Of a DNA stretch of 32,257 bases, positions 21,293 to 22,489 are shown piece after piece (within the stretch, counting starts at the first letter, position 1; each line of letters begins with the position of its first letter). The position numbers and the translations under genes are program-made. Origin of the DNA: Natrialbaceae archaeon B1-Br10_E2g2 (GTDB lineage Archaea; Halobacteriota; Halobacteria; Halobacteriales; Natrialbaceae). The DNA lies in assembly GCA_001563805.1 (NCBI GenBank), contig LKMK01000007.1:1-32257 (forward strand), written 5' to 3'. Below the pieces are notes generated by a model. It searched no databases. It was not told the origin of the DNA and saw nothing but the letters and a program-made list of their open reading frames with translations.

Positions 21293-22066
21293 GTGTGCAC
21301 GCTTGCTCTCGCCTGGCAGGTCTTCGAGGACGCGCCGGTCGCCGTCGCCGCGAACCGCGACGAATCGCTCGAGCGTGCCTCCCGGCCACCGGGAATATAC
21401 CGGGAGGAGCCGCTCGTCGTCGCGCCGCGTGACGCTGCGGCGGGTGGCACCTGGATCGGCGTCAACGAGCACGGCGTCTTCGTCGGCATCACGAACAAGT
21501 GGAACGACGCGGACCTCGCTGGCGAGCGTTCGAGAGGGCTACTCGTTGCTGACGTCCTCGAGGCGGTGTCCGCTGCCGACGCGGCCGACGTCGTCGAGAC
21601 GGAGACGGCGACCACCGAATACGAGGGGTTCTATCTGGTCATCGCGGACGCGAGCGAGGCGTTTTGCTACGAGTGGAACGGCGAACTCGGACGGATCGAC
21701 TTCGAGCCCGGCGTCCACGTCGTCGTCAACGCCGCTGTGGACGAGACGGTCGATCCGCCGGCGACCCGGATCGACGCCGCTCGAACACAGGCACAAAACG
21801 GGCGCGCGGTTCGACGGGCGCTCGTCCCGGCCGGAGACGAGACGCTCGAGGAGTGGCTCGAGCGCGCCGGCGGCGTCCTGGGCGACCACGAGCACGGCGT
21901 CTGTATCCACCGGGACGGGTACGGCACGCGCTCGTCGTCGCTGATTGCCACCGGCGAGGCGAGCACATATCGGTTCGCACCGGGGCCACCGTGTCGCACC
22001 TCCTACGACCCGGTTGCCGTCGCGGACCGACTCGCTGCCGAGGGGGACGTCGAAGGCCACATTTAA
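21293..22066 (+). CDS. NRDE/TANGO2-family protein
   Basis: 257 residues from a GTG start immediately followed by a Cys codon. The family has a conserved N-terminal Met-Cys (MCTLALAW), which supports this start, and the name motif ANRDES is at residues 20-25. Other family segments are GGTWIGVNEHGVFVGITNKW (50-69), RSRGLLVADVL and SSSLIATGEASTYRFAPGPPC near the C-terminus. The fold is Ntn-hydrolase-like; TANGO2 has been linked to haem and lipid metabolism in eukaryotes, but the archaeal role is unknown. It sits 73 bases after menE with its own TATA-like element. Its stop codon lies inside the TATA box of the next gene. Confidence 0.88.
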   Translation: MCTLALAWQVFEDAPVAVAANRDESLERASRPPGIYREEPLVVAPRDAAAGGTWIGVNEHGVFVGITNKWNDADLAGERSRGLLVADVLEAVSAADAADVVETETATTEYEGFYLVIADASEAFCYEWNGELGRIDFEPGVHVVVNAAVDETVDPPATRIDAARTQAQNGRAVRRALVPAGDETLEEWLERAGGVLGDHEHGVCIHRDGYGTRSSSLIATGEASTYRFAPGPPCRTSYDPVAVADRLAAEGDVEGHI

Positions 22067-22067
22067 G
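22061..22067 (+). promoter_or_regulatory. TATA box overlapping the NRDE stop codon
   Basis: ATTTAAG; the TAA stop of the preceding gene is inside it. It is centred 28 bases before the ATG at 22092, not before the regulator's own start, so the transcript should begin at the short upstream ORF. Confidence 0.55.
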
Positions 22068-22091
22068 CAGCTTCCGGTACCTCGTTGTGGT

Positions 22092-22142
22092 ATGGACGGA
22101 CTCCTGCCTGTCGCGCCGAGCATGGAGGGGTGGTCACGGTGA
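22092..22142 (+). CDS. 16-codon leaderless upstream ORF coupled to the regulator
   Basis: The frame reads MDGLLPVAPSMEGWSR and a stop. Its ATG is exactly 28 bases from the TATA box centre, as for a leaderless start, and its TGA stop overlaps the GTG start of the following winged-helix gene (GTGA, 22139-22142). A GGAGGGG Shine-Dalgarno-like run inside it (22124-22130) lies 8 bases before that GTG. The arrangement suggests translational coupling or attenuation. Alternatively it is the true N-terminus of the regulator joined by a frameshift, or a sequencing error split the gene. Confidence 0.45.
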   Translation: MDGLLPVAPSMEGWSR

Positions 22143-22489
22143 GCATCTCCGCACTCGAGGCGGAACTCTCCGAAGACGAACGCGCTGGCCTCGAACTCGT
22201 TCGCGAGACCGGTGGCATCCACCAGAGCGACTTCTGGAAGGAACTCGACGTCTCCTCGCGAAAGGGGAGTCGGATCGTCGAGTCGCTCGTCGAGAACGAC
22301 CTCGTCGACCGCGAGGAGACGGTGTACGCCGGACACAACACCTATTACATCACGCCGACGGCGCGTGACCTCGATTTCACCCTGTTGATGGCCGGCGACA
22401 TGCTCTCGCCGTTTATCGGCGAGGAGGAGGTTGACCCCAACAGCGACGCCTTCTCGCAGTGGATCATGAACCTCGCCTATCAGGAGTAA
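22139..22489 (+). CDS. Winged-helix transcriptional regulator
   Basis: 116 residues from a GTG start. The DNA-binding domain covers residues 8-75: helix ELSEDERAGLELVRETGG, the turn IHQSDFWKELDVSSRKGSR and recognition helix IVESLVENDLVDRE, then the wing VYAGHNTYYITPTARD. This is the MarR/Lrs14-like style common in haloarchaea. The rest is a short helical tail (SDAFSQWIMNLAYQE) likely used for dimerisation. GGAGGGG eight bases upstream decides the start. Its translation is probably coupled to the upstream 16-codon ORF. Target genes unknown. Confidence 0.85.
   Translation: MSISALEAELSEDERAGLELVRETGGIHQSDFWKELDVSSRKGSRIVESLVENDLVDREETVYAGHNTYYITPTARDLDFTLLMAGDMLSPFIGEEEVDPNSDAFSQWIMNLAYQE

Follow-up and report, generated by a model that had tools for sequence, protein, structure and literature searches.

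How does a gene stay translated when the promoter in front of it is placed for another start codon? The question is raised by a locus of Natrialbaceae archaeon B1-Br10_E2g2, located in a window (the whole stretch of DNA that was analysed) of 32,257 nucleotides. A gene encoding a TANGO2 / NRDE-like protein, found in the ORF list at 21293–22066 (Pfam PF05742 TANGO2, E=8.7e-26), is followed at 22139–22489 by the gene of a 116-aa MarR-like winged-helix protein, hereafter the regulator; these and the other features of the locus given below are on the forward strand. A promoter consisting of a BRE-like CGAAGG and the TATA box TTTAAG (22062–22067) can be read in the sequence at 22051–22067, and the TAA stop codon of the TANGO2-like gene (22064–22066) lies inside this TATA box, as the first-pass annotation had pointed out. 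The first T of TTTAAG (22062) is 30 nt from an ATG at 22092, which is in the position of a leaderless start and opens a short upstream ORF (uORF) of 16 codons and a TGA, MDGLLPVAPSMEGWSR (22092–22142). The TGA (22140–22142) overlaps the GTG start codon of the regulator (22139–22141) in a 4-nt GTGA (22139–22142). Furthermore, the uORF contains a Shine-Dalgarno (SD)-like GGAGGGG at 22124–22130, the window's own SD match being a modest GGAGG, and a GTG at 22130, in frame, is a possible alternative start of the regulator. Haloarchaeal mRNAs are mostly leaderless, but SD motifs inside genes are nonetheless common.

The first-pass annotation had read this layout as a leaderless start on the uORF and an SD-aided start on the regulator, on a single mRNA. 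Orthologous loci drawn from many families were oriented, the regulator start was placed by homology, and each locus was scanned for two features, a TATA box and an ORF whose end falls on the regulator start; the orthologues L188–L190, of families f5 and f11, and the partial locus L164 were not included. The resulting 194 distinct loci fall into 115 with an equivalent of the uORF, 77 that are leaderless-like, and two (L076 and L183) that were left unclassified by the script and appear leaderless. In the leaderless-like loci the TATA box lies 29–33 nt before the regulator ATG, with a distance of exactly 30 nt in 49 of the 77. In the uORF loci it is the uORF that starts at this distance (29–36 nt; exactly 30 nt in 96 loci). 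The spacing of 30 nt in the window is accordingly also the commonest one between TATA box and start codon in orthologues lacking a uORF, which bears out the claim that the TATA box is spaced for the ATG at 22092 and not for the regulator GTG. The overlap holds equally well, since the uORF TGA is found at +4 of the regulator start in 115/115 loci, as GTGA in 95 and as ATGA in 20. The regulator start codon itself is always ATG in the leaderless-like loci, whereas it is mostly GTG in the coupled ones. Each element of the proposed mRNA is thereby backed by relatives, consistent with a leaderless start and an SD-aided start being combined on it.

Five uORFs (L099–L102 and L148) start with GTG, and it is this GTG, not a downstream ATG, that occupies the 30-nt position. 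In nine distinct loci, from one genus of family f7 and of the Salinarchaeum and Halorubellus types, the start is 33–36 nt past the TATA box, and the mRNA of these loci may begin with a short leader, a few nucleotides in length. When the stretch between TATA box and start was shuffled, an in-frame ATG or GTG at 29–31 nt with no stop before the overlap was obtained in 2.1% of cases, or 0.7% if only ATG was allowed. Among the uORF loci such a start was observed at 29–31 nt in 106/115, and within 28–36 nt in all of them. The arrangement of TATA box, uORF and overlap is far from chance.

The same loci bear on the suggestion that the uORF is incidental, with the regulator translated either from an additional promoter that escaped detection or by SD-led initiation directly on a 47-nt leader. 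An SD-like motif is indeed present, and in Haloferax some genes have additional transcripts that start beyond a small ORF (PMC4983044). A second TATA-like element about 30 nt before the regulator start is, however, absent from 111/115 uORF loci, the four that have one all being plasmid-borne or second-copy paralogues, and a displaced TATA box without a uORF was not found at any of the loci compared. We therefore regard an incidental uORF as very unlikely.

The overlap between promoter and preceding gene is not a peculiarity of the window either: the TATA box overlaps the stop codon of the upstream ORF in 10/10 loci checked, both architectures included. In several families, again with both architectures, BRE and TATA box coincide with the final codons and stop codon of the upstream gene (E-[GS]-[HQ]-[IVF]-stop). 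This embedding means that the end of the protein and the promoter constrain each other.

If the uORF is translated, what has been conserved in it? A comparison of the 16 codons across related species had been proposed by the first-pass annotation, and it gave a divided answer, with the frame conserved and the peptide not. The uORFs are 10–30 codons long; at least 23 changes of length are placed on the tree, every one of them a multiple of three (the tree is that of a 348-nt gene, on which this count rests). A genome of the same genus, for example, has a uORF of 30 codons with its ATG 30 nt past the TATA box, ending on the regulator start. Among the 49 loci with 16-codon uORFs the start ATG and the TGA are invariant, and codons 2–9 have 6.0, 5.8 and 5.9 changes per site at codon positions 1, 2 and 3, as against 1.0, 0.6 and 6.8 in the regulator. 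The dN/dS of the uORF is about 1.3. Equal rates at the codon positions, this dN/dS and indels in multiples of three together indicate that selection acts on the frame and on the linkage to the regulator but not on the amino acids. An in-frame fusion of peptide and regulator, which would have pointed to a sequencing error or frameshift in the window, occurs at 0/115 uORF loci, and this explanation was rejected.

These data also weigh on a regulatory leader peptide, the amino acids of which would be sensed through nascent-chain arrest or codon-specific attenuation and so control regulator synthesis. Such a role could be read from the first residues, MDALLPVA, that are similar among many Natrialbaceae. 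It is contradicted by the dN/dS and the uniform codon-position rates, on which a conserved functional peptide was rejected, and by the diversity of the peptides, 94 of them being distinct at the 115 loci and those of other genera unrelated in sequence. The uORF furthermore has no run of a single amino acid, no structured RNA accompanies it, and no Rfam family was found at the uORF region. A sensed peptide is thus highly improbable. More generally, uORFs below the size of ordinary annotation can be strongly selected for frame and linkage even as the sequence of their peptides drifts, and small proteins detected by Ribo-seq should therefore not be presumed to be functional peptides.

Conservation could alternatively reside in the DNA, for instance in an autoregulation operator around the regulator start, the uORF being untranslated. 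A near-palindromic TCAC-N-GTGA at the regulator start, frequent in Natrialbaceae, would suit an operator. It leaves unexplained, however, the indels in multiples of three, the start codon 30 nt past the TATA box, the recurrence of the overlap in separate genera of Haloferacaceae, and the ATGA form, and we give this explanation hardly any credence at all.

The internal SD-like motif separates the two architectures. A match of at least 6 nt to the SD was found in 74/115 uORF loci, compared with 0/77 leaderless loci and about 4% of shuffled sequences, and most often begins 12 nt before the regulator start codon. The 3' end of the 16S rRNA with the anti-SD, read in a genome of the same genus, is GGATCACCTCC. 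The GGAGGGG at 22124–22130 had been proposed to be placed for reinitiation, and the conservation of an SD motif inside the uORF among relatives supports this placement.

An SD motif would also be expected if a hairpin hid the regulator start until translation of the uORF unfolded it, so that new ribosomes could initiate at the SD (UTNI), and coupling of that type is known in E. coli (PMC6728339). In eight species, however, the folding of the uORF/start region does not surpass that of shuffled sequence (z 0.0 to +1.7), and hairpin-gated coupling was rejected for want of structure above shuffles. Initiation at 5' UTRs in H. volcanii is, moreover, not driven by SD motifs (PMC3986360), and a hairpin model has no need of a precise 4-nt overlap. 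Gating by structure consequently has a very low probability.

Instead, it is very probable that a leaderless uORF passes ribosomes on to the regulator by termination-reinitiation, and that its peptide is irrelevant; the transcription start, the translation and the reinitiation are what we infer from sequence. The promoter within the end of the TANGO2-like gene would give an mRNA with its 5' end on the ATG at 22092 or immediately beside it. Leaderless initiation on this ATG would be followed by translation of 16 codons and by termination at the TGA overlapping the GTG, where the SD-like stretch of purines shortly before the GTG may pair with the 16S anti-SD and retain the ribosome or its small subunit. 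The retained ribosome could then reinitiate at the regulator GTG. The uORF would hence be a ribosome-delivery device, in place of direct leaderless initiation at the regulator. Haloferax genes with a 4-nt overlap are strictly coupled via termination-reinitiation, and haloarchaea use the SD there (PMC6728339); coupling in Haloferax declines over a distance of about 20 nt (PMC10666635). For coupling in E. coli, the final 15 nt of the upstream gene are enough. By analogy with the published Haloferax experiments, synthesis of the regulator would depend on translation of the uORF, which probably limits regulator output to at most that of the uORF.

We favour the reading that coupling is only a means of keeping the gene translated, at a fixed and probably reduced yield, rather than of regulating it. 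It seems unlikely, by comparison, that the leaderless uORF serves haloarchaea to control a core regulator in an evolvable manner that does not depend on the peptide, with the architecture switching repeatedly and the dose of regulator following the capacity for leaderless initiation and reinitiation, for example under stress. If this control reading were true, the uORF would be the first conserved element of such a type described in archaea.

Elements of the same kind are already known from mycobacteria, where leaderless small ORFs are tied to the next gene by RTGA and the linkage is conserved but the peptide is not (Shell et al. 2015, PMC4633059). The haloarchaeal uORFs resemble them in the overlap between TGA and the start of the next gene (115/115), in keeping the linkage and not the peptide, and presumably in being leaderless, for which the start codon 30 nt past the TATA box is taken as a proxy. 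They differ from them in having an archaeal TATA/BRE promoter and an archaeal ribosome and in the conserved internal SD motif. Furthermore, and unlike in mycobacteria, the leaderless and the coupled form alternate at a single orthologous gene across a class. With overlapping gene pairs of Haloferax volcanii (Huber et al. 2019, 2023; PMC6728339, PMC10666635), a member of the same class, they share the 4-nt NTGA overlap and the intragenic SD; those pairs are ordinary operon genes, whereas the first cistron here has 10–30 codons and no conserved product. Small ORFs are also present in 5' UTRs of 150–250 nt in H. volcanii (Babski et al. 2016, PMC4983044), and these are similar in having 15–31 codons and in preceding normal genes, regulators among them. 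Unlike for the uORF, a start/stop overlap or conservation is not described for them in the text consulted. No report of a conserved archaeal leaderless uORF with a start/stop overlap was found in the literature searched. With the mycobacterial element known and reinitiation at overlaps of 4 nt demonstrated in Haloferax, the uORF is an archaeal form of a familiar type of element that had not been met in this literature, with a clean evolutionary switch between the two architectures.

The switch is evident on the tree of the regulator gene, where at least 6 changes of architecture are placed, compared with about 60 for shuffled labels, both counts being read on the tree of the same 348-nt gene. 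The locus exemplifies how a gene may leave its promoter without losing translation, through the gain of a tiny leaderless ORF that stops at the gene's start codon. Leaderless and coupled orthologues are, in addition, natural matched pairs for testing termination and reinitiation by leaderless ribosomes in archaea.

The regulator was matched in 391/392 sampled genomes of Halobacteria, and is therefore a core gene of the class. Against Pfam DUF7343 it scored 23.7 bits, below the curated cut-off of 27.6, and neither the protein (phmmer) nor its profile matched any PDB sequence. Its AlphaFold model has a mean pLDDT of 76, rising to about 90 over residues 11–60. A Foldseek search with this model gave 54 PDB matches with E <= 0.001, and most among the matches listed belong to the MarR family, which is also the annotation of most plasmid-borne homologues. 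By fold similarity of the predicted structure, the regulator is a MarR-like winged helix. Structures of the oxidative-stress regulator RosR are deposited in the PDB, and an identity with RosR was rejected, given the lack of a PDB sequence match for protein or profile.

Plasmid or second copies of the regulator were seen in Natrinema, Natribaculum and Haloterrigena (L054, L055, L057, L062 and L078), with promoter and uORF travelling along. In three of them (L055, L057 and L062) an ATG start is preceded, at a distance of about 32 nt, by a CTTATA, which perhaps represents a return to leaderless translation. In the distant family f11, two homologues (L188 and L190) seemingly have the winged-helix domain twice, in tandem within a single protein.

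An initial survey of 400 kb revealed no enrichment of coupled uORFs positioned by a TATA box. A larger survey, based on crude gene calls over 2 Mb of a same-genus genome, recovered the regulator locus and gave 7 coupled short ORFs with a TATA-like element at 30 nt versus about 3 expected. From these counts the arrangement is rare and not general. It is probably not unique to the regulator. Another of the seven precedes a membrane-transporter gene, by appearance of the bile acid:Na+ symporter type; this short ORF is likewise TATA-positioned and overlaps the transporter start codon in an NTGA (G000:C112 near 16201, L241; G003:C3:398013, L240:18013). Other Natrialbaceae genomes are without this overlap, and in at least six it is kept, with peptides and lengths that differ.
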